Source: a virus
Strand: one strand, 5' to 3'
DNA: 21,385 nt
Virus record (IMG/VR): IMGVR_UViG_3300025669_000221
Span: 1-21,385 of that record
Made by a program: the position numbers and the translations under genes. Shown here in pieces: positions 963-20,729 of the stretch. Below the pieces are notes generated by a model, which saw only the letters and a list, made by a program, of their open reading frames with translations, made no database searches and was not told the origin of the DNA. Position 1 is the stretch's first letter. Each line of letters opens with the position of its first letter.

Positions 963-3199
963 TGCCACTTACAAGCCAGATACAGAGCTTCTACATTAAG
1001 AAGTTTGCTGGTCAGAATACGAAAGTAGAAGAACAGGAACTTCCTATAGAACAGGCTATTAAAGCTCAGAACTGTGAGTTTGAACCAGAGTTGGGTTCTA
1101 TATCTAAACGTTCACCGTTGGCTTATTACAACACTTCAACGTTGGGTGCTAATCCGATATTGTCTATGTATAGGTTTTATAAGTCTGATGGCACTATCAA
1201 GCTCGTAACTTCTTACGATTCTACTATCAAGGTTGGTACAGATGCTTCGGGTGCATTCACGAGTATACGTACAGGTATGACTGCAGGTAAAAGACATTCT
1301 TTTGTTACTTACAAGGATATACTCATAGGTTCAAACGGATATGATAATCCGTGGTGTTATGATGGTGCCGACAATGTAACGTGGGAGCTTGGTTCCGCTA
1401 AGGCTGTCTTAACAGCAGGTGGTACTAATTTAGATAGTGGTGCAGCTTATTATTATGCAGTTACTATTAACGCTGATGCTTTTATATGCGGTGCTGTTAG
1501 TAACACAGTCACTACAGACGCAGGTAATCGTAAGGTTACTTTATCTAATATACCGTTGGGTCCAGCAGGGACAACCAATCGTAAGATATTCCGCACAGAA
1601 GGTGATGGCAGTACACTTAAGTTGTTGGCTACTATTGCAGATAATACTACTGTTACCTATGTAGATGACATAGCTGATGGTTCATTAAGCGACACTATGG
1701 GTGCTGTAACAGACGATATGCCTTTAGGCAACCTGCTTAATATCCATAGAGAAAGATTGTTTATATCTGGTGACCCAAGTAATCCTAACCGTATTTATTA
1801 TTCTAACCCATATCTGCCTCATTACATTGCACAGACTACAGACGTAGATTATATGGAAATAGAGAAAGATGACAATGATGAAATAGTAGGGATACCTATG
1901 CAGTTAGGTATATTATTATGTATAAAGAAAAACACCATAAGGAAAGTGCATGTTACAACTCCAGTTAGTGGCTACTCTCCATCCACCTGGTACGCGGATG
2001 ATCCTATAGCTTTTATAGGTTCACCTGCTAAGTGGTCTATTATCCAAACTCCTTATGGTGTTGTTTTTCAAGGTTGGGACCATTGGTATTTATTCAATGG
2101 TGTTAAAGCTGAACCCATTATAGACCAATTTGATACAGACGATATACTATCTGCTCGGTATGCTGAGACAGCGTGTCATTTTAATAAAGGTATTTTATAT
2201 ATTGCTTATACAGACGCTACAGATGCTAACCAGTATCATGACAGGGTAGCACGCTATAACTTCAAGAGGCAGACCTTAGCTGTTGACCTACTGAACGTAG
2301 CCAGCTTTACATCTTTTACTGGTGATGATGAATCAGGAGAAACCTATTATGGAGATAGCGTAAATGGTTTCGTGTATATGGCTCGTAAAGCAAACCTTTC
2401 TATTAGGTACAGAACCAAGACTCAGCTGGAGACTGGCACTACAGATGATATAGTTATATCTGGAGAAGAAGATGCACCTCAGATGGAGATAGCTCGAGAT
2501 GATATAATAGATGACCTTACAGGCATTATAGATGATTTGGTCGGTACTATTAACATGGGAGATACAGATGGCACAGTTACATTCCCGTCTATAGAGGTTA
2601 ATGCTGGTACGTTAGGTAAGATGTATTGGAACGTTAGGGAGCATAATGATGCTGACACTGTATATGCTCATACTCGGGTAGGAGCTGATAAGGCTGCTTG
2701 TGAAGCTGCAGGTTGGAGTGCTGCGTTAACTTTATCCGGGCAAGATATAACTTCTACTGCTAATCTTTGGATACAGGTTAAGTTTGAGTTCACTGCTAAC
2801 TCTACTGCTGGTTCTCCTGTTATGTATTATGCTGATGGTTTTGTGTGGAGGTTCACTTATACGAGAGATTATGGTACTACTACTGCAGAAGATTCAGTTG
2901 AATTTACTTATAGGATAGGATTTAGAAACTTAGATTCGCCTGCTGTAGATAAGGTGTTTAAAAAGTTATTCAGTTCTCATGAAGGTACAGCAGGTGATTT
3001 TGAGATACGTTGGTATACGGAGAACTCTAGCGGTACGTTTACAATTCCGCTATCAACATATCCTGCTAATTGGAGTACGTTCTTCCCGTCTAACGCTTTC
3101 GGTAAGAAGATAGACATAGAGTGGTATAAGAATGATTTGGAAGATTTTAAGGTTAAAGAATTAACGGGGATATATACCCCCGAGCCACTAATAATATAA
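962..3199 (+). CDS. Tail nozzle / tail-hub-like structural protein
   Basis: The 745-aa product is almost entirely beta-rich and has no membrane segments. Placement directly after the adaptor, the length, and two features match nozzle (stabilisation/tail tubular B-like) proteins of short-tailed phages: an early Gly-Ser-Ile-Ser-Lys-Arg-Ser-Pro stretch near residues 45-52, where the family describes the beta-propeller entry, and a segment around residues 265-285 (RLFISGDPSNPNRIYYSNP). The family closes the end of the stubby tail and carries the fibres. The C-terminal 250 residues (from about residue 500) look like a separate fibre-type beta domain. It shares TAATG with the adaptor gene and is followed by AAGGAGG for the next gene. 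The specific family assignment is by pattern and context, not by a profile search. Confidence 0.65.
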   Translation: MPLTSQIQSFYIKKFAGQNTKVEEQELPIEQAIKAQNCEFEPELGSISKRSPLAYYNTSTLGANPILSMYRFYKSDGTIKLVTSYDSTIKVGTDASGAFTSIRTGMTAGKRHSFVTYKDILIGSNGYDNPWCYDGADNVTWELGSAKAVLTAGGTNLDSGAAYYYAVTINADAFICGAVSNTVTTDAGNRKVTLSNIPLGPAGTTNRKIFRTEGDGSTLKLLATIADNTTVTYVDDIADGSLSDTMGAVTDDMPLGNLLNIHRERLFISGDPSNPNRIYYSNPYLPHYIAQTTDVDYMEIEKDDNDEIVGIPMQLGILLCIKKNTIRKVHVTTPVSGYSPSTWYADDPIAFIGSPAKWSIIQTPYGVVFQGWDHWYLFNGVKAEPIIDQFDTDDILSARYAETACHFNKGILYIAYTDATDANQYHDRVARYNFKRQTLAVDLLNVASFTSFTGDDESGETYYGDSVNGFVYMARKANLSIRYRTKTQLETGTTDDIVISGEEDAPQMEIARDDIIDDLTGIIDDLVGTINMGDTDGTVTFPSIEVNAGTLGKMYWNVREHNDADTVYAHTRVGADKAACEAAGWSAALTLSGQDITSTANLWIQVKFEFTANSTAGSPVMYYADGFVWRFTYTRDYGTTTAEDSVEFTYRIGFRNLDSPAVDKVFKKLFSSHEGTAGDFEIRWYTENSSGTFTIPLSTYPANWSTFFPSNAFGKKIDIEWYKNDLEDFKVKELTGIYTPEPLII

Positions 3200-3209
3200 G
3201 GAGGTTACA

Positions 3210-3935
3210 ATGGCAGACCAATGGATGCGAGGAGCAGGAACAGATGCATTACAAGGGGATGAAGCGGATGGTGCTTCTAAAATAGCTTCAAATGCTACAG
3301 CTTACCTACAAGACCCTTTAGATAGGTGTCTTCATGGGTATATTAATGGATGTAAGGTAGCTTATGCTTCAGCTTCTACAGTTACGGTGGGTGTAGGAGC
3401 ATGTATAGCCGCTAATTCTACTGGTCTTATCCATCAGATGAGACGTAATACTTCTGCTGTAACGGTAGATATTACTACCGACTTAGATACGGGTTCTGAG
3501 GCGGTGAGCACGAGGTACTACGTGTGGGCTATACAAGATGCAGATACTACTACATTTACTTGTAAGATGTCTCTATCCGCTACATTCCCTACTGGAGTTA
3601 CGTATTCAGTTCTTCTCGGGGAGTTGTATAACAATGCTGCTGGAGATATAGAACAAGTTAAGAGCAGTTGGAGTAGAGAGAGTATTGGGATACTTACAGG
3701 TACTGTCGCTCATGCAGGAACGATACCTTTGCCGGATGGATTTACAGAAGCACAATGTAAATGGTTTGTTAGTATCAATGCTCTCGTAGCTTCTCAAGAC
3801 CAACACGCAACTCGTGCAGAGAATTTAAGTTGTAGTGCAGACGGAACAAGGGTTGTTACAATATCGGAGTTAGGTGGTAACGGAATAATTGCAGCTAATG
3901 GAACAGCTAACTACTTTATTATAGGAATAAAATAA
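3210..3935 (+). CDS. Putative tail fibre / receptor-binding structural protein
   Basis: A 241-aa protein with a good ribosome binding site (AAGGAGG, about 7 nt upstream). The N-terminal 45 residues are polar and probably helical (Ala-Gly-Thr-Asp-Ala-Leu); the rest is rich in Thr, Ser, Ala and Val and reads as successive beta strands. The middle (about residues 95-145; VSTRYYVWAIQDADTTTF, then a Gly-Val-Thr-Tyr-Ser-Val-Leu-Leu-Gly-Glu-Leu motif) resembles the repeated module seen in many phage fibre proteins in which a physical quantity domain ends in LGEL. The position between the nozzle-like protein and further small fibre genes supports a fibre role. It ends as TAATG with the next gene. No specific family is recognised. 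Confidence 0.55.
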   Translation: MADQWMRGAGTDALQGDEADGASKIASNATAYLQDPLDRCLHGYINGCKVAYASASTVTVGVGACIAANSTGLIHQMRRNTSAVTVDITTDLDTGSEAVSTRYYVWAIQDADTTTFTCKMSLSATFPTGVTYSVLLGELYNNAAGDIEQVKSSWSRESIGILTGTVAHAGTIPLPDGFTEAQCKWFVSINALVASQDQHATRAENLSCSADGTRVVTISELGGNGIIAANGTANYFIIGIK

Positions 3936-4234
3936 TGGCTATATTAGATGACATAACAGCATTTGACGAAGCTAACCTGCCTCTGTTGCAGCAGATACTA
4001 AGGAGCATGCAGGAGGACGCAGCTAACGTTAAATTTGTTACTGAAACACCTACTGCAGATAACTTAGCTACTGGTGAAGTAGCTGTTAAGGATGATGGTT
4101 CTGGAGTTAAGACAGTATATTTTAGAACTCCTGAAGGGAACATAACAACACTACGTGATGGATTTATAGAGAACAGGACGGATGACCCTGCTTCTCCAGT
4201 AACAGGGCAGATATGGCTACGAACCGATTTATGA
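3935..4234 (+). CDS. Small tail-fibre-associated structural protein
   Basis: A 99-aa protein starting on the A of the previous stop (TAATG). An N-terminal helical part (residues 1-33, [15 protein letters not shown]) could trimerise; a beta-rich part follows. Its ending ([13 protein letters not shown]) is a motif common at the ends of phage fibre and head-fibre modules, in which Gly-Gln-Ile-Trp precedes a polar strand. It is cut off from its former partner gene at 4711 by the HNH element. The last five codons (CGA ACC GAT TTA TGA) repeat as AGG ACA GAC TTA TAA just before the ATG at 4711, so this 3' end may have been rebuilt when the element entered. The last two codons overlap the stop codon of the convergent HNH gene. 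Confidence 0.6.
4220..4234 (+). repeat. Left copy of the RTDL-stop junction
   Basis: Codons CGA ACC GAT TTA TGA end the 99-aa gene. They encode the same Arg-Thr-Asp-Leu-stop as 4697-4711, with every nucleotide difference synonymous (10 of 15 bases match). This marks the left edge of the HNH insertion. Confidence 0.6.
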
Positions 4235-4654
4235 GGTAATATGATGAGCAAAGGCAAACATACGACACTTATTGGAGCAAAACTTTTTCCGAATAATATC
4301 TCTTGTAGAATTAATTTGGAGTTCTTTTCCACATTGAAGACACTTTTTAATAGGCCATTCGTTATTATGATGTCGTTTGTGGTCTGCACCTTTCATACAG
4401 AGCTTAAGGTTTTCTATTCTATTATCGTCTTTAGTATTGTTTATATGATGGATGCACTCATCAGATTCAAGCTTTCTTCCAAGATGCTTCTCCATAACAA
4501 GGCGATGTTCGAGGACATAAGTGTAAGGAGCAATTCTGATACAGATATATCCTTTAGTATGTTTATACCTACCACCTTTCCATCTGTTGTTTTTGGAACC
4601 TTGACTGTGATAACCGATAAGTTTCTTAGCTTCTTCAGTATGTTTGTACCTCAT
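4229..4654 (-). CDS. HNH homing endonuclease
   Basis: The only minus-strand gene in the window, encoding 141 aa. The order of motifs is that of free-standing phage homing enzymes: an N-terminal DNA-binding NUMOD-like start ([19 protein letters not shown] with RWKGG, residues 4-28), then the HNH core with His50-Arg51, His69-His70 and Asn72, Asn78 and Asn82 ([18 protein letters not shown]), then a C-terminal zinc-finger pair, Cys105/Cys108 and Cys126/Cys130. HNH_3-type enzymes nick or cut a target site and spread the element by repair. It has its own promoter (4661-4689) and lies between two fibre genes, so its transcript runs antisense to the 99-aa gene. All key residues are present, so it looks intact. 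Confidence 0.9.
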
Positions 4655-4660
4655 AGGTAT

Positions 4661-4689
4661 ATAGTATGTCAGTACGGAACACTTGTCAA
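4661..4689 (-). promoter_or_regulatory. Promoter of the HNH gene
   Basis: On the minus strand, a perfect -35 box TTGACA (4684-4689) is followed after 17 bp by TACTAT (4661-4666), a 5/6 match to TATAAT (T A n n A T, with C for T at the third place). Only 6 nt separate the -10 box from the ATG at 4654, so transcription would start at or near the start codon, giving a leaderless or nearly leaderless message. No ribosome binding site is seen. Confidence 0.7.
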
Positions 4690-4696
4690 GTACAAA

Positions 4697-4711
4697 AGGA
4701 CAGACTTATAA
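4697..4711 (+). repeat. Right copy of the RTDL-stop junction
   Basis: AGG ACA GAC TTA TAA ends exactly on the A of the next ATG (4711), recreating the TAATG overlap used by other junctions in this block (960-964, 3933-3937). This is probably the ancestral gene end, now separated from its gene by the HNH element. Confidence 0.55.
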
Positions 4712-5409
4712 TGGCAGAATATAATTGGGCAGCTAATCCGTATAGTAGTAACTCTGGTAGTGTATCTTCTTGGGGTACAGGAGGTGACCCTACAAGAATA
4801 ACTAATACTACCTATGGAACTTATGCTAATGCTTTTGACAATAATATGGCTACTTTTTATGGAATTAAAGCATATACGACTATATACTCTCAGCTTTGGG
4901 CAAAATGTATAGTTACTTCTGAATTTGATGAAGCAGAAGATATAGACAATATGGTTATTAAAATACAGGAAACTGGATATGGTACTAGAAACTATGCTAT
5001 CTATTCTCTAGAATATTACGATACTGGATGGAATTTTATTGCTAATGGGACTTCTTTTACTGGAACTTCTACTGTTACTAATACTACTGGTTGGAGTGGT
5101 GTTAATAAAGCTAGGCTTACTGTAGAAGTACGTTATGATTATATAGCTCATTCTGGGCATCTTGACACTTATGCTTACATTTATGAATTACAGGCTTTTG
5201 GAACAAGATACAACGATATAGGACTTAGATTAAAAAACAATTCTACTACTATTAATATAGGTGTTCAAGATTTAGATGGACATAAATTACGAGTTAGCAA
5301 AGATAGTACTACATATGGAATACCTTTACTAACTCCAGGAGATGACGGTGATTCAGGTATTAGGTTTTATGATAATAGTAATGTTAAAGCGTTACCGATA
5401 GCAGATTAA
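4711..5409 (+). CDS. Putative tail fibre / receptor-binding protein
   Basis: A 232-aa beta-rich protein with many Thr, Tyr, Asn and Gly residues. Residues 39-51 (ANAFDNNMATFYG) followed by an aromatic strand recall the start of discoidin-like (F5/8 type C) sugar-binding domains. From about residue 173 a distinct module begins (IGLRLKNNSTTINIGVQDL), ending in a Gly-Asp-Asp-Gly-Asp-Ser turn; such tails recur in phage fibres. I chose ATG 4711, which was coupled to the upstream gene by TAATG before the HNH element entered; a frame-open ATG at 4666 lies inside the element and gives a nonsense-like extension. An AAAAGGA at 4694-4700 offers a weak ribosome binding site. Function is inferred from position and composition. 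Confidence 0.55.
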   Translation: MAEYNWAANPYSSNSGSVSSWGTGGDPTRITNTTYGTYANAFDNNMATFYGIKAYTTIYSQLWAKCIVTSEFDEAEDIDNMVIKIQETGYGTRNYAIYSLEYYDTGWNFIANGTSFTGTSTVTNTTGWSGVNKARLTVEVRYDYIAHSGHLDTYAYIYELQAFGTRYNDIGLRLKNNSTTINIGVQDLDGHKLRVSKDSTTYGIPLLTPGDDGDSGIRFYDNSNVKALPIAD

Positions 5410-7499: not shown

Positions 7500-10400
7500 A
7501 TGGTTAAATTTAAAATAATAGAACCACCAGATTTTAGCGATACAGCTACAACTGCAGTTGCAGAACCAGCTAATGTATTCCGAGGCGGAGAAGAAGAAAA
7601 GAAACCTTCTGCTCCCAAGCTTCCTAAAGAAGAAAAAGTAACGTTCACCATACCTAAGCCACCGTCCTCTGAAGATGGAGTTGCTTCCCCATTTAGTTCC
7701 CCTAGAAACGATGCTATTCGGGAAGGACGAGAACTAGAGCAGAAGAAAATCACTAACATTAAGGCAGATTCTTTCTTTAGAAAACTCAAAAAAATCAGTG
7801 AGTGGAATTATAAGCAAGGTGAACGTGCTGAAGAATCAGGTAAGTTAGCTAACCTACAGTGGGCAGGTAAGATTACTATAGAAGAGATGCTTGCTCAGGA
7901 TATAGAGCTACAGAAGAAGTACGCTAATATGGGTGATGACCCTACACCCAGTTGGGAACAGAATAAGTTTTGGGATATTTATGGAGCAGGCGTTAAACTT
8001 CTTCCATTCCAGTTTGGAGCATTCAAGAAGGGTGCTATCGGTGCTGCAGCTGGGTGGTTAGTAGGAGCTATAGCTACTCCGTTCATGCCTGGAGATGATG
8101 TTCTTCTAGCTGCTGCAGGTGCTAAGCTTGGTCCTAAACTTGCTGGTGCTATCGGTAAGAAAGCCATCCAAGCTACAGGAGCTAGGGTTGGAGGTGGTAG
8201 TGCAGTAGTAAACTACTCTATGAATATAGAGGGTGGTAATATCTATATAGATTTAATAAAGAGAGGAGTTGACCCTGAGTTAGCAAAGAAAGCATCTCGG
8301 ATAGGTGGTCTTGCTATAGGTCTTGTAGAGGTAGCTAAGTTTGGAGCCATAGCTAAGTTCCTTCCCGGTATCGGTTCTAAAGCTGTTCGAGCAGCACTCA
8401 AGACAAGTAGCTTTAGGGTAGCTCTTGGGAAAGCCCTTAAGGAATGGGGCAGTATGTATGGTCAGGAAGTATCTGAAGAATACATACAGAAGGTAATTGA
8501 GAACGCTACTATAATGGCAGCTGAGGCCCTTGACGATGGTGTAACGCCATCTTACAGGGATGTAGTAGACAAACTGTTTGATAATGCTTGGGTAGAAGCT
8601 AAGGCTGCTGCTAAAGGCATGCTTCTTACTTCAGGTCTATTAGGTGGAGCTGCTATAGGAACCAGTTCGGTGGGTTCTGTATTAAGAGAGAAGGCTAAAG
8701 AGTCTACTAGGAGGCAAGTTTTTGAAGGCACCAAGAGTGGTACTGCTCCCGATGTTCTTATAGGTGCCGCTAGAATGAGAGACAATCTTATAGGGGAAGA
8801 ATTAAAAGAAGGTGTTGCGTATGGAGAAGATGGATTTTTTCATAAGAGAGAAGGTAGGACTGATAAGCTTATAGAGGAAAAAGACCTTACTGAGAGGCAA
8901 AAAGAAATATCCTACCTTGACCAAGCTGTTAGCAATAAGGCCTCTAATGCTATTGCTAAGAAGTACGGGATAAGATTTAAGAAGTTTGGAGAGAGGGATA
9001 ATTTTAAATGGAAATTACTTAAAGATACACTTACAGGTACTAAGGTTAAGATAGCTTGGAAGGGTAAACCAGAAATAGTCGATACAGAGTTTGAGGTGGT
9101 AGGTAATGAAGGTAGTCCTCAAACAGGTAAATATGATGCTTTAACTCCTGAAGAAACTAAAGATGTTAAAGGTACAGCGTTAAAACTATTAAACAACTTC
9201 ACTAAGAAAGGTAAGAAAGGAAAGCCCGGTAAGCCTGTTGTTACCTATGATGAGTTAACTCCGTTCCTGCAGGCCAGATTATTAGACTACATTGCAAAAG
9301 CTAAAGAGTCTGGTGTAACAGAAGCAGATATGGAGACAGGACCATTCCTATCTAAGTTCTTCGTTGGGATTAAAGATAAGGAAGGTAACGTATTAGACCA
9401 CGGAACTAAGAATTTAGTTGAATATATAGGTGGTCAATTAGATGTTGAAGGTGGCGATATAAAGGTTTGGCTCGGGTTAGTACGGGGTCTGGTTGCTATC
9501 AAGGATATACCTGGGTTCCTTGCTCAAGCTGGAATGAAGTTCTCTGACCTTCAATTCGTTGCTTTAAAACTTAAAGGATACAGTAATGTAACTAAGGTAA
9601 GGGCTACTATTTTAGCTGAAGTTAAAAAACAAGCACAGCAACAAAAAGACTTAAAGGATACTATTGATGATTCTTATTATGTAGATATAGATTCACAAAC
9701 TGATTCATCTGATTCATCTACTACAAAGCCTGTAAAAGATGTTTCCTTACCTGAGCAGGAAGGTGTAGTTCCAAGTCAAACTGTAGAAAAGAAAGTAGAG
9801 ACTGAAGCTGTCGAAGTAATAGAGAAAATAAAACAAGATAACGCTACAAAGAAAAGTAACAGGAATCTTAAGAAGGGAGATGAACAAACACAAGCCAAAC
9901 CAACGGTAACTGAATCAAAGGGCATTGGATCAACTATAGAACAAATGCCCGGTCTTCCGAGGGGAGTTCTCCCTAGAGCTAAGTTTGGGCTTAAAACTAA
10001 AGTGAGATTTACTACAATAAATGCATTACGTAGACGGCTTAATAAGATTGGAGATATTAGAGACAGCATTAAGATTATTGCTACAGACAGCGAGGCGTTC
10101 GCTAATGGTGTTAAGATAAAAGATAGTATAGATAAAGATTTCTTAGCAGCTTTCATTACAGATGATAGGAAGACTATATATATAAATAAGAAGGTAATGG
10201 ATATTTGGTGGAAGCACTATAGTAAAAGGAAGAAGATAAAAGGGTGGAACAGGAAAAGCAAGAGTGAATCAGGCTATTGGTTACTCGACCTTCTTCCTAA
10301 GGGAATGTCTAAACGTGAGTTCTTTAGATTTGCTGCAGAACACGAAATGGTTCATCTTATTACTGGGTTAGATGGTGAACAAATAGATGAATTACTTGTT

Positions 10401-13400
10401 ACTGTTTTAGCTTTAGAAAGAATTGGTCGTGTTGAGGATGCTCAGTATCTCCAACAGTTTGCATCTATCACAAGAGCTCCACTCCAGAAGCTTGAGAAAA
10501 TCATAGTACCATTAGAAGATATTAGAGGAACAGAGGGGCTACAATACCAAACAACTCAAAAGGACCTTGTAGACATGAGTAACGTACCTTGCAAGGTTAA
10601 CCCTGTGTATTTAGATCCTGATAATCTTTTAGAAATAGATAAGATGGCTGGTACAAACCAAAGTTTTTCTTCGAGTCGTAAAGCACCTATAGCTAAGAAA
10701 AAAATATTAACAGAACTCAATCAAGGACTATTAACCGATGAATGGAGACAAGAGAATATAGTTTCTTTGAATAGGATGGTAGATGAATTCTTAAGGTATC
10801 ACCCAAGCATTGAAGGCAATACTACTACTAAGGCTGGTGTGAATAAAATCATCAACAATTTTACTCCAGATGAGAAATTAGCCTTTTATAAGTTGTTGAA
10901 GTCTAAAGATAAAGAGACTGGAGTGCAGAACGTCTACCTTAACCACGAAGTAAACGATGGTACTATAACACCGGATGTTTACAATAATGTTCCCGGTGAA
11001 GGGGTCAACTTCTGGGGTGAGAAAGTCGGTGGCGAGAAACCAGAAGCGATGCAAGATGGTGATGCTTATAACAATAATATGAAGGTTAGTAAGGTAAACA
11101 ATACTGAAGACCAGATTAGAAATGAATTAGGTTGGAAGATTAAACATTTCTATGAAGCTATATCAGGTTTATTATATGCAAAAAGAAGGATAAGCAGGAA
11201 GGTGGCTAAGACTGCTTGGGAGAAAAAGCGTGTCAATATGAAGCTTTCTAATGGGGCGATTCACAAACTAACGTTATTCCTTAAACAACATGGTGTCAAT
11301 GAACCTATTGCCGATACTGATACAGGCATACTAAACCAACTGTATGCTACCGGTGTGTTTAAAGAGAGTTCTGAAAGCTACCCTAGGGCTGTGGGTATTT
11401 GGTATAATGAAGAAATATACGACCCCAAATGGCCAAATAAACAAAGAGCAATGGCTATAAGCAGTATGCCTTTGTGTAAGAACGAATTGGCAAACTTATT
11501 AAGCATGAATGACCAAAATGTTAAGTTTCACGAAGATGATATAAACGATAGAATAGCACATCAGGGAGCCTTATGGCAGTTAGCCAAAGATAAAGATGGC
11601 AACGCTGTAAACGAAGGTTCTGTTGTGGACCGGATAGATAAGGTTACTGAAGAAGAAACAGTTCAGATAACAGAATTTATAAATGACCAAGTAGATAGCG
11701 TAGGACCTGAAATAATTCAAGAAGAAGAAACAGCAGCCCAGAAAAAGTTACGACATGATCTCAATGTGTTTTGGGCAGACCGTAGAAGCAGCGATCTCCT
11801 TGAGATGCAGAAGATAATGCAAGAAATTTCTGATGACGAGGCTGGTAAGCTCAACGCACCTGAAGATATTAAGAAAGAAACTGATGAAGAATACTATGGG
11901 ATGGAGGGTGATGAATCTGAGGACAGTGTTGGAGAGGTAGAGATTCAGGACGGTTTATTTGGATTAGGTGGAATATTTGGATTTACTAAGAAGGGCTCTG
12001 GTGATACCAAGACTAATAATACTCGGTCTCCGTCTACCGAGGCAGAACAGTTCCGTGTTGGAATAAGGATGCTGCTTAATGCTACTAGGTTCTTTGGTGC
12101 TAACGATTCCAACGTTCTTGATGCTATAGACCACTACGCTAACCCTAACTGGACTAAGAAGATACCTAAGGTGCCTTCTAAGTTACGAGGAGTGTTCCAC
12201 GAAATAGTAGAACCTCTTATGTTGTTTAGGAGAAGTGCTACTACCAGTGCTCTCTATGGAGCTATGATGGTTAATGTTGTAGTCAAGGAAATAGCCGGAG
12301 TAGCAGATAAAGATATGGGAGGGAAGAGGATAAGGTCAGGTGCATGGCTTAAGAGATACAAGTTCTATTCAGCGTTGCTGTGTAGGGCCGTAGAAGAGCT
12401 GCAGCCGGGTAATAAATACTCAGAGATAGGTAAGGGTGGCCCTCATAATACTCCGGTAATAGCAAGGAACTATCTGAAGGATATGACACACTTCTGGAAT
12501 GCGACACATGATACACCAGCCACTCCTCAGCAAGAACAAGGTTGGTTAAATAACAGAGACCCCTTATCATTTACCACCCTACTACCTACCGAACTTCAAG
12601 GATTAGTAGCGTGGGTACAGAATGAAATAGCTGCTCCACTATTACAAGAGCAGTTAGATAAAGGTATATTTGATAGTGCTTCTACCTATGCTTTAAGAAG
12701 AGAAGGTTGGTTTAGAAGGTGGGCTAACATAGATACTGATGAAAAAGGGAAGCAACAAACAGCTGTATCTTCTGAAATACCAGCTAAGAGAGAATACTAT
12801 GCGTTCAGTGACTTTATAGATATTGCTGAGAACAAGGCTCATATGGATGCTGCTCAGGACTTCGCGGCTATCTGTGGAGAGTATGTAACTGGTAGCCTTA
12901 ATAAATTAACTAAAGCTAATATACTACAAGAGTTCTTAGGTATGACAGCATTAGATGAAGAGCATCCGGATTGGACTCTGGTTATGTATGCTACTAAAGT
13001 TAAGGTTCCAGCAGTTGTGAACGGTGAGTCTACAGCAAATTGGACTAGAGAGGAGAAGGGTGCTTGGAAGAATGGTTACTTGCAGGATAGAGGGTTCACT
13101 CAGATGAAGAGTGCTCCTGGCTTAGCAGGTTGGTCCTTTGGTAAGTTTCAAGCACCGTGGGTACATAGTAGTGTTGCTAATCTAATAAGAACATTTACCG
13201 AGACTTCTAGGAAGAGCCAATGGTTAAAATCTTGGTTCGCTATTAACAGAATTGTAAAGCTTATGGTTATGTTTACACCATTTATGTATATGATGCAGAT
13301 TGTGTCTACACCGTTTGCTTGGGTACCTAGATTATTACCTAAAACTATTAAAGGCGTTGCTATGATGTTACCTGCAGGATTAAAGCAATCTGTCCTTAGG

Positions 13401-14774
13401 TTTCAAGGTAGGAAAGACCCATTCTCTCATCTTAAGGGACAGAACTACGATTATAAAAAGTTGTACTGGTTGCTTCAAGCAGGATTACCTGGATTTAATG
13501 TAGACTATGCTATGAAGGCATTGTTTGAACGGGAGATAGATTTATCTCATCCTATGACTAAAACTATACTACACAACGCTTACAAGGTAGTACGCAGTAA
13601 AGGCGGTATGGAGGATTATGCCTTCGATAGATTCATAGCCAGCCATATCTATGCTTTATCTTCCAAATTCTATGATGACTTTATGGCTAGAGGTTGGGGT
13701 GAAGAAGTTAGTGCTCGCAGAGCTGCTATGTTGGTGGGTGATATAACTGGTATGGTTAATTCCTCTATATATGGCAACGAAGGACAATTTCTCCAAGCTT
13801 TCTTATTTGCCAGAGATTTTACAATGACATTCTTCAGGCAGGTTACAGGAGCGTTGGGTTTAAAGTTCATAGTTCCAGGATCAAGAGATTTCCAGACAGG
13901 ACCGAGACACGTATTTAATTCATTACTACACGGAGAGAAGTCCGTTGCAGACATGCAGGCTTTACAGCCTCTTTACTTTGCTCACCTTATGAAGATAATG
14001 ATGTGGAGAATATCATTAGTTAATATGACGCAGTTTGGTTTAATGATGATGTTAGGAGATGAAGAAGATAAAAAGAAACCGTGGGCTTATCAGAATTCAG
14101 GTACTATGTCTAAATTGTTTATAAAGTTACCTTGGAAGAATAAAGAAGGAAAGCAAATGTATCTTGATCCTCTGATGTTAAGAGAGCCTTCTCAGTTAAT
14201 AGGGTGGCCTACTAAGCCCGGTAGGATGTTTAGGGGTAAGATGAACTATGCTGTTAGTGTGGCTTGGGACCTTATGAAGAACAGGGATTATAGAGATAGA
14301 TTAATATATCCTGAGTCCAGCGCAATGGGTGTTAGCGAAGGATTCCGCACTAAAAAGAAAGCTAGGTACGTTTGGGATGCTGCTTTACCTACTGCTTTCG
14401 ATAAAAATGCCCAGTTCCAAGGATGGTGGTTTCAAGTCCTTTCATCGTTGGGTTTAAATGTTAAGGTAGACCATTGGACTGAGAAAGGACATAGCAAAGA
14501 TGAGATTGTTGCAATAAAGGGCTGGCAAGCAACTCTAAGATGGTTGAATGATGATTTTTCTAGATTCCTTGAAACTACCACACCTCAAGAACAGTTAGAG
14601 TTAGCTTCTCGTGGTAAGCTGACACCGACTCAATTATTTAATCTCTATAAGAAAAGAAATTTCCGTATTAGCAGTGTAAAGTACGATGAAGCTATGACTC
14701 TATACAAAAGCTTGTGGAAGTATAGAGATATTATAGATTTACCAACAGCAAGAAGAGATATATTCAGCAGATGA
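7500..14774 (+). CDS. Giant polyvalent-type internal virion protein with zincin metallopeptidase domain
   Basis: A 2424-aa protein covering a third of the window. Layout by residue: a Pro/Lys/Glu-rich N-terminus (1-65); Gly/Ala-rich hydrophobic segments (172-219 and about 375-395) around a helical part containing YGQEVSEEYIQKVIENA; a Ser/Thr/Lys linker (725-800); a zincin-like domain in which AAFITDDRKTIYINKK leads to His948-Glu949-Met-Val-His952, with Glu960 and Glu964 downstream; an acidic linker (about 1440-1485); and a C-terminal helical region with PWVHSSVANLIRTFTETS (His1889) and a hydrophobic patch at 1918-1945. That C-terminal style resembles the LPD38-like part of large polyvalent phage proteins. 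Such proteins are packaged and ejected with the DNA. The HExxH plus upstream YIN strand supports an active protease; substrate unknown. It overlaps the next gene by ATGA. Confidence 0.65.
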   Translation: MVKFKIIEPPDFSDTATTAVAEPANVFRGGEEEKKPSAPKLPKEEKVTFTIPKPPSSEDGVASPFSSPRNDAIREGRELEQKKITNIKADSFFRKLKKISEWNYKQGERAEESGKLANLQWAGKITIEEMLAQDIELQKKYANMGDDPTPSWEQNKFWDIYGAGVKLLPFQFGAFKKGAIGAAAGWLVGAIATPFMPGDDVLLAAAGAKLGPKLAGAIGKKAIQATGARVGGGSAVVNYSMNIEGGNIYIDLIKRGVDPELAKKASRIGGLAIGLVEVAKFGAIAKFLPGIGSKAVRAALKTSSFRVALGKALKEWGSMYGQEVSEEYIQKVIENATIMAAEALDDGVTPSYRDVVDKLFDNAWVEAKAAAKGMLLTSGLLGGAAIGTSSVGSVLREKAKESTRRQVFEGTKSGTAPDVLIGAARMRDNLIGEELKEGVAYGEDGFFHKREGRTDKLIEEKDLTERQKEISYLDQAVSNKASNAIAKKYGIRFKKFGERDNFKWKLLKDTLTGTKVKIAWKGKPEIVDTEFEVVGNEGSPQTGKYDALTPEETKDVKGTALKLLNNFTKKGKKGKPGKPVVTYDELTPFLQARLLDYIAKAKESGVTEADMETGPFLSKFFVGIKDKEGNVLDHGTKNLVEYIGGQLDVEGGDIKVWLGLVRGLVAIKDIPGFLAQAGMKFSDLQFVALKLKGYSNVTKVRATILAEVKKQAQQQKDLKDTIDDSYYVDIDSQTDSSDSSTTKPVKDVSLPEQEGVVPSQTVEKKVETEAVEVIEKIKQDNATKKSNRNLKKGDEQTQAKPTVTESKGIGSTIEQMPGLPRGVLPRAKFGLKTKVRFTTINALRRRLNKIGDIRDSIKIIATDSEAFANGVKIKDSIDKDFLAAFITDDRKTIYINKKVMDIWWKHYSKRKKIKGWNRKSKSESGYWLLDLLPKGMSKREFFRFAAEHEMVHLITGLDGEQIDELLVTVLALERIGRVEDAQYLQQFASITRAPLQKLEKIIVPLEDIRGTEGLQYQTTQKDLVDMSNVPCKVNPVYLDPDNLLEIDKMAGTNQSFSSSRKAPIAKKKILTELNQGLLTDEWRQENIVSLNRMVDEFLRYHPSIEGNTTTKAGVNKIINNFTPDEKLAFYKLLKSKDKETGVQNVYLNHEVNDGTITPDVYNNVPGEGVNFWGEKVGGEKPEAMQDGDAYNNNMKVSKVNNTEDQIRNELGWKIKHFYEAISGLLYAKRRISRKVAKTAWEKKRVNMKLSNGAIHKLTLFLKQHGVNEPIADTDTGILNQLYATGVFKESSESYPRAVGIWYNEEIYDPKWPNKQRAMAISSMPLCKNELANLLSMNDQNVKFHEDDINDRIAHQGALWQLAKDKDGNAVNEGSVVDRIDKVTEEETVQITEFINDQVDSVGPEIIQEEETAAQKKLRHDLNVFWADRRSSDLLEMQKIMQEISDDEAGKLNAPEDIKKETDEEYYGMEGDESEDSVGEVEIQDGLFGLGGIFGFTKKGSGDTKTNNTRSPSTEAEQFRVGIRMLLNATRFFGANDSNVLDAIDHYANPNWTKKIPKVPSKLRGVFHEIVEPLMLFRRSATTSALYGAMMVNVVVKEIAGVADKDMGGKRIRSGAWLKRYKFYSALLCRAVEELQPGNKYSEIGKGGPHNTPVIARNYLKDMTHFWNATHDTPATPQQEQGWLNNRDPLSFTTLLPTELQGLVAWVQNEIAAPLLQEQLDKGIFDSASTYALRREGWFRRWANIDTDEKGKQQTAVSSEIPAKREYYAFSDFIDIAENKAHMDAAQDFAAICGEYVTGSLNKLTKANILQEFLGMTALDEEHPDWTLVMYATKVKVPAVVNGESTANWTREEKGAWKNGYLQDRGFTQMKSAPGLAGWSFGKFQAPWVHSSVANLIRTFTETSRKSQWLKSWFAINRIVKLMVMFTPFMYMMQIVSTPFAWVPRLLPKTIKGVAMMLPAGLKQSVLRFQGRKDPFSHLKGQNYDYKKLYWLLQAGLPGFNVDYAMKALFEREIDLSHPMTKTILHNAYKVVRSKGGMEDYAFDRFIASHIYALSSKFYDDFMARGWGEEVSARRAAMLVGDITGMVNSSIYGNEGQFLQAFLFARDFTMTFFRQVTGALGLKFIVPGSRDFQTGPRHVFNSLLHGEKSVADMQALQPLYFAHLMKIMMWRISLVNMTQFGLMMMLGDEEDKKKPWAYQNSGTMSKLFIKLPWKNKEGKQMYLDPLMLREPSQLIGWPTKPGRMFRGKMNYAVSVAWDLMKNRDYRDRLIYPESSAMGVSEGFRTKKKARYVWDAALPTAFDKNAQFQGWWFQVLSSLGLNVKVDHWTEKGHSKDEIVAIKGWQATLRWLNDDFSRFLETTTPQEQLELASRGKLTPTQLFNLYKKRNFRISSVKYDEAMTLYKSLWKYRDIIDLPTARRDIFSR

Positions 14775-19952: not shown

Positions 19953-20466
19953 TAATAAAGCAGAGATACAGACCGTTATAGACAGATTTAATAGAGAAAA
20001 TGTTATGGCGGACCTCGGTGCAGAGAGCCGGATAGGTGACCAATGCTTATCGCTTCTTCGTAATTGCAGTGTTGTCGAAGAAGTTGAGATCTGTTCCGCG
20101 GTGATTGCGTTGGGTTGCATTAATAAATATGCTTTTGAGGAGTTGCCTATCATCCCCTACGCTTTGCTTGAATTCCGTGAATGGTGTACAACAGATGATT
20201 GGTCAAAAATGAAGAAAGAGGATAAGCTGGATAAGCGTAGAATAATATTCTCACGTCCCGAGGTAGCAGACTATGTTAATAAGAAAAGCATAATACAAGC
20301 AAGTAATGTATCTAACTCCAAGGCTTTAGAGAAATTCATAGATGCGTTCTTAAGTTGGGGAGAGACAGAGAAAGCAAGGGAAGCGTGGCGGATATACAAC
20401 GGTTATCCTAATAATCTACAGATAGGGCAAGGAACTATATGGAAAAAGAGAAAGAACTTCCAGTAG
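19915..20466 (+). CDS. Hypothetical replication-block protein
   Basis: A 183-aa mostly helical protein. I chose ATG 19915 because GGAGG at 19904-19908 lies 6 nt before it (19918 is the alternative); the frame is open further upstream but without such a site. It overlaps the end of the initiator gene by 38 nt. The sequence has helical stretches (AEIQTVIDRFNRENVMADLG; EVEICSAVIALGCINKYAF; KALEKFIDAFLSWGETEKAR) and no Walker motif, so it is not a DnaC-like loader of the ATPase type. Its place directly after the initiator suggests a partner of it, for example a helicase-loading accessory protein, but I recognise no family. Confidence 0.6.
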   Translation: MMGKNLDTSTLFDNKAEIQTVIDRFNRENVMADLGAESRIGDQCLSLLRNCSVVEEVEICSAVIALGCINKYAFEELPIIPYALLEFREWCTTDDWSKMKKEDKLDKRRIIFSRPEVADYVNKKSIIQASNVSNSKALEKFIDAFLSWGETEKAREAWRIYNGYPNNLQIGQGTIWKKRKNFQ

Positions 20467-20729
20467 GGTTTTCGAATGAGATACGAGAAGAAGTGTTCAG
20501 TATGCAGAACGGTATATGCAAACATTGTCTTGATCCTATCCAAGATTTTCACCATTCCTTGCGTAATACTAAGGCTAACCGCAGGTTGTTCCATTTATTT
20601 ATTAATTCTCCTCTTAATTGCGTTGGTTTGTGCCGGGAGTGCCATACGAACAAATCTCATCTTTATAGGATCAAAAATAAAGAAGCTACTATATATGAGA
20701 ATTATTTAACATGTTTATTAAAATACTAA
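20439..20729 (+). CDS. HNH endonuclease / zinc-binding recombination protein
   Basis: A 96-aa protein overlapping the previous gene by 28 nt, with CAAGGA before its ATG. It has Cys27-x2-Cys30, His38-His39, Asn60 and Cys65-x2-Cys68-His69 (GICKHCLDPIQDFHH; SPLNCVGLCRECHTNKS). That is a compact HNH core framed by a CXXC zinc pair, as in small phage endonucleases. Unlike the minus-strand HNH gene, it is part of the operon and its overlap with the preceding gene argues against a recent insertion, so a role in packaging or recombination is also possible. The catalytic His and Asn are present. Confidence 0.75.
   Translation: MEKEKELPVGFSNEIREEVFSMQNGICKHCLDPIQDFHHSLRNTKANRRLFHLFINSPLNCVGLCRECHTNKSHLYRIKNKEATIYENYLTCLLKY

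Follow-up and report, generated by a model that had tools for sequence, protein, structure and literature searches.

An HNH endonuclease gene that now separates two structural genes of a virus probably entered their overlapping junction as a free-standing homing gene, together with a homologous replacement of the end of the upstream gene. The window, i.e., the whole stretch of DNA that was analyzed, is a 21.4-kb IMG/VR virus record (IMGVR_UViG_3300025669_000221, positions 1 to 21,385). In the reading that we favor, the native upstream gene (P0001) would have been broken close to its 3' end, and the repair would have copied in both the HNH gene (P0002) and the donor version of the gene end, which would be the left of the two copies seen today. 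The native end would now lie beyond the insert, as the right copy, and the upstream protein would retain its conserved RTDL C terminus through the imported copy. An element-free relative of the ancestral type would be expected to have a P0001 end like AGGACAGACTTATAATGGC. Phage genomes are packed and their genes overlap, which makes it a real question how selfish endonuclease genes spare essential neighbors. At this locus and its parallels, the solution would be to bring in a spare gene terminus and to leave the native terminus to serve the neighboring gene.

The duplicated gene end and the HNH gene

P0001 (99 amino acids; positions 3935 to 4234, plus strand) belongs to a structural/fiber block, and its C-terminal motif is common to about 25 phage contigs. 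Its functional end, CGAACCGATTTATGA (positions 4220 to 4234; CGA ACC GAT TTA TGA, i.e., RTDL and a stop), recurs on the plus strand as AGGACAGACTTATAA (positions 4697 to 4711; AGG ACA GAC TTA TAA) at the start of the downstream structural gene P0003 (232 amino acids; positions 4711 to 5409, plus strand), whose homologues lie directly 3' of the P0001 homologue in contigs L003 and L091. This duplication had been described in an earlier note on the same DNA, and its details were all confirmed: the copies are 462 bp apart, they differ in four of five codons and five of 15 bases with all changes synonymous, and the right copy forms a TAATG overlap that is shared with the neighboring junctions at 960 and 3933. 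A degenerate RTDL-stop pattern matched exactly twice in the window, where 0.10 matches were expected, and none of 100 shuffles contained two. Since a second contig, L002, carries the identical arrangement (100% identity to the window over 4714 bp, spanning both copies), the duplication is not a one-off assembly error. An identical target-site duplication, as left by transposons, was ruled out, because the copies differ at five of 15 bases in these two identical contigs.

P0002 (141 amino acids; positions 4229 to 4654, minus strand) matches the HNH_3 family (PF13392; E = 9.6e-10, above the cut-off), has an intact catalytic motif (EHRL...), and carries a C-terminal Cys4 zinc-finger-like segment. 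It is a free-standing open reading frame on the strand opposite to the flanking genes, lies in neither an intron nor an intein, and ends inside the left copy, its stop codon TAA being complementary to the TTA codon there. A group I intron was ruled out, as there was no Rfam match to an intron between positions 3800 and 5100; a PDB profile search using the HNH alignment also gave no match. Directly upstream of P0002 and on the same strand lies a promoter-like TTGACA-N17-TACTAT (positions 4661 to 4689, minus strand), which is a consensus match only, such sites being found four times with 2.4 expected. The element is polymorphic in its presence, being absent from the homologous site in L091/L093 and in L003, and P0002 presumably cleaves such element-free alleles site-specifically and homes into them, with the left copy putatively resistant to its cleavage. 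Elsewhere in the window (positions 20439 to 20729), a small protein with a CxxC...H...CxxC spacing (CKHC...HH...CREC) resembles another HNH nuclease and has no Pfam model at the cut-off.

The junction in element-free relatives

Profile searching for relatives of P0001 yielded 33 loci; no homologues of P0001 or P0003 were found in named phages. The C terminus of the family, ...IENRT(S/D)DPxSPxxGQIW(L/F)RTDL, is strongly conserved, and the codons that encode it vary widely among relatives. The single fused RTDL-stop/ATG junction predicted by the earlier note for relatives without the HNH gene is present, with the same upstream ending and a junction that corresponds to the right copy. It reads AGGACGGATTTATAATGGC in L091/L093, which share the gene order of the window (220 amino acids, 745 amino acids, 270 amino acids, P0001 homologue, and P0003-like gene), and AGGACTGATTTATAATGGC and CGGACTGACCTCTAATGGC in the element-free L101 and L090, respectively. 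RTD(L/I)-TAATGGC is found in L101, L090, L095, and L107, and in the element-free L003 the overlap that follows RTDL is ATGA. The fused junctions of L091/L093, L101, L090, and (in its ATGA form) L003 support the proposal that the element was inserted into an ancestral RTDL-TAATG junction.

The junctions of L091 and L101, which are distant relatives, share 17 of 19 bases with the right copy and 12 with the left. The best-supported assignment is that the right copy represents the displaced native end of the upstream gene and that, by analogy with loci L055 and L058 (below), the left copy probably derives from a diverged homologue and was brought in along with the HNH gene. The vestige in the window comprises 15 to 19 nucleotides, too few for placement in a tree. 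At overlapping junctions the arginine codon is mostly AGG, which yields an AGGA Shine-Dalgarno-like core 10 nucleotides before the ATG; AGG is kept in the right copy, CGA stands in the left copy, and the preference for AGG at overlapping junctions is suggestive only (Fisher P = 0.06). In the window, the Shine-Dalgarno-like AAAAGGA (positions 4694 to 4700, plus strand) includes this AGG codon and lies 10 nucleotides 5' of the P0003 start. We propose that the right copy has persisted because it supplies P0003 with its ribosome-binding site and TAATG start, and the vestige would then have a role in the translation of this gene.

The structural block is strongly mosaic. P0001 is at most 46% identical to its relatives, and the otherwise diverged P0003 contains a tract of 217 bp (positions 4749 to 4965, plus strand) that is identical to positions 4155 to 4371 of the element-free L003. 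This tract begins 38 bp past the right copy and lies within a homologous stretch of 677 bp that is 84.8% identical, which reveals recent recombination close to the element. L003 also features four consecutive homologues of the structural block (1467 to 3785, 3782 to 4069, 4066 to 4815, and 4825 to 5379) with N termini that, by eye, resemble signal peptides (e.g., MKILLLLLFCNICFAG, MKTLLCLILLLSLYKNSSA, and MKRITVLLAMLMATNAYAG), which the versions in the window do not have. Further downstream in the window, an open reading frame of 2424 amino acids (positions 7500 to 14774) contains a zinc-protease-like HEMVHL motif and possibly encodes a large virion protein.

Duplicated termini at other HNH loci

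Two other HNH loci could be compared with close element-free relatives. At L058, the duplication concerns the start of a gene, and the element-free relative L203 is 93 to 94% identical on either side of the insert. Over its first ~115 nucleotides the functional gene in L058 shows only ~55% identity to L203, and over the remainder 90 to 97%; the vestige, in turn, continues contiguously from the upstream gene, matching the layout of L203. At L055, the interrupted gene encodes a protein of 824 amino acids related to P22-like portal proteins, and a 43-codon vestige of its end forms a TAATG overlap with the next gene. Relative to the portal gene of the element-free L200, the functional gene is ~80 to 100% identical (mostly 90 to 97%) up to its last ~130 nucleotides, where identity drops to 53 to 77%. 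The vestige has the native sequence LTPEAMTQQNPQPQPPIQDTGQNP and matches L200 at 113 of 146 positions, versus 103 of 141 for the functional end. Judged from these alignments, the insert at both loci is an HNH gene plus a foreign gene terminus, with the native terminus displaced.

To obtain a broader view, we compared the left and right flanking DNA of 136 distinct HNH_3 genes of viral contigs. About ten other HNH loci in phage contigs showed the same kind of terminal duplication, with one copy truncated. The duplication is clear in L055, L189, L085, L154, L144, and L025, where the terminal pair reads RFTANFHQIR and KFTAHFHQIR, each followed by a stop; L176 and L149 are ambiguous. Equally clear duplications of gene starts occur at L128 and L147 as well as at L058. 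In L144 (4977 to 5633), the HNH frame appears to enter the displaced gene end (...SKNKLYFVKDE, versus SKNKLYFVKNE in the upstream gene), a read-through that would supply the nuclease with a borrowed C terminus, and L069 may be another case of this type. Records of named phages contributed ten HNH loci, none of which showed a terminal duplication; one of them, L216 (Javan616), interrupts a lysin gene in the manner of an intron.

Similar flanking peptides were found for 9 of 136 HNH genes and for 15 of 681 other open reading frames of the same contigs (P = 0.01, rising to 0.06 when the cut-off is made stricter). The statistic is of modest strength, as a background of ~2% arises from tandem paralogues, repeats, and low-complexity frames, so that the structural evidence of L058/L203 and L055/L200 has to bear the argument. 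We nevertheless prefer the within-contig figure to that of a first control, in which the left flank of one locus was compared with the right flank of another: there, 7 of 136 genes scored above the control maximum of 52 in 1000 comparisons, a result inflated by the tandem paralogues and low-complexity frames that a cross-locus control misses. An automatic filter for the terminal type was too permissive (14 of 136 versus 32 of 604) and was not relied on. Some of the high-scoring control genes are themselves HNH or HNH-like, namely, L157 (by Pfam), L012 (antisense to HNH_3), and L059 and L051 (both by eye). In L157, an AP2-HNH gene (7666 to 8196, minus strand) is flanked by copies of INFSQRVRDLP plus stop that differ only synonymously (ATT/ATA, TTA/TTG, CCA/CCG, and TAA/TAG), which makes it the second clear example of this kind after the window, and in L012 an N-terminal pair surrounds the gene that is antisense to HNH_3. 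Two HNH genes of cellular contigs likewise have similar flanking peptides, one in a Pacearchaeota contig (L228, 3788 to 4285; KMRNKVWSTKIADKYFSQF... and KKIKRVWSTQVADRKFSEF...) and one in L238 (1194 to 1757).

Origin of the arrangement and its known counterparts

How the two copies came to differ is the point on which the possible explanations part. The earlier note held that the cleavage site had been removed by rebuilding the left copy with different codons, i.e., that selection after the insertion favored synonymous changes that let the enzyme spare the occupied site. That every difference is synonymous, with four of five codons affected, agrees with this view, as does the need of homing elements for an uncuttable occupied site. 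However, the insertion alone already splits the site, the pairs at parallel loci differ both synonymously and nonsynonymously, as diverged alleles do, and the functional termini of L055 and L058 are imported homologous segments, foreign over more than 100 nucleotides, while the other copy is native. The recoding is thus not supported, and we regard it as very unlikely. If the left copy stems from a diverged homologue, the synonymous-only differences would be ordinary divergence of a conserved C terminus, as expected from the conservation of the P0001 C terminus across phages with varying codons. This view requires no purpose-made recoding, and divergence of the gene end would at the same time contribute to protecting the occupied site from cutting.

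A short target-site duplication of ~15 bp might alternatively have been generated by the insertion, its copies drifting apart afterwards, the left one under protein constraint and the right one under the constraint of the start signal or under none. The insert does have a short direct duplication at its borders, and each copy is sufficiently functional to have been kept, yet five of 15 bases differ even though the two element-bearing contigs are identical over 4.7 kb. Moreover, the differences between the right copy and the relatives are also synonymous, although this copy would be noncoding, and parallel loci have imported termini of at least 100 nucleotides instead of short duplications, which leaves this explanation unlikely. 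A related idea, differing from the favored one in a longer imported tract and in that homing is not required, is that another phage donated the whole upstream gene and the HNH gene as one module, the crossover on the right falling within the RTDL end of the recipient. The strong mosaicism would fit, with P0001 being so dissimilar from its relatives next to a tract of P0003 that is identical to L003; at the two testable loci, however, the imported terminus is short (100 to 130 nucleotides) and the remaining gene is native, and of all the explanations we give this one the least credence.

Insertion with replacement of the gene end, as favored here, has a counterpart in fungal mitochondria. The mORF gene hybrids in Allomyces (atp6) and Glomus (atp6, atp9, cox2, and nad3) harbor an endonuclease gene at a gene end, where a foreign homologous C terminus stands in place of the native one, which has been moved to the far side (PMC3630166). 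In both fungi, it is the displaced terminus, not the functional one, that agrees with close relatives; the functional end in Glomus differs in DNA from that of a close relative but encodes a nearly identical protein sequence (PMC3630166). A duplicate gene terminus likewise flanks the endonuclease gene in the window, in L055, L058, L025, and others. The pattern of a foreign functional and a native displaced end is present at L055 and L058; in the window, where the comparison is with distant relatives only, the right copy fits these relatives better than the left copy does. In contrast to the mitochondrial LAGLIDADG or GIY-YIG endonucleases, the genes described here belong to tailed phages, encode HNH_3 proteins, and frequently lie on the opposite strand. 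Further differences are the N-terminal versions (L058, L128, and L147) and, in the window and L055, a vestige that also provides the start region for an overlapping gene.

Among phage elements, the mob/seg genes of T4 and the HNH_3 genes of ICP1 are similar, according to the accessible portions of the reports, in combining an HNH_3 domain with a C-terminal zinc-finger-like segment and in lying beside essential structural genes at boundaries of exchange (PMC2988022, PMC10448857). These portions describe insertion near genes and coconversion of flanks, but no displaced duplicate of a neighbor's terminus (PMC2988022, PMC10448857). No phage report of displaced gene termini was found in the accessible literature searched, which included papers on T4, ICP1, and lactococcal HEGs; within this scope, a mechanism so far known from fungal mitochondria appears to be newly extended to phages. 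It explains some of the short "remnant" open reading frames that adjoin phage HNH genes.

In outline, the arrangement also resembles engineered home-and-rescue drives, in which, as far as the accessible text describes them, a homing nuclease travels with a sequence-diverged copy that restores the interrupted gene (e.g., PMC7968924). Those drives are CRISPR based and engineered (PMC7968924), whereas the phage element is natural and its cleavage resistance putative. Tentatively, phages may possess a class of natural "home-and-rescue" elements, that is, HNH homing genes regularly accompanied by a diverged, cleavage-resistant copy of one terminus, from either end, of their target gene. If so, they would be a natural counterpart to the engineered drives and could enter essential genes with tight overlaps without destroying them. 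The displaced vestige, finally, suggests the approximate position at which the enzyme would cut.
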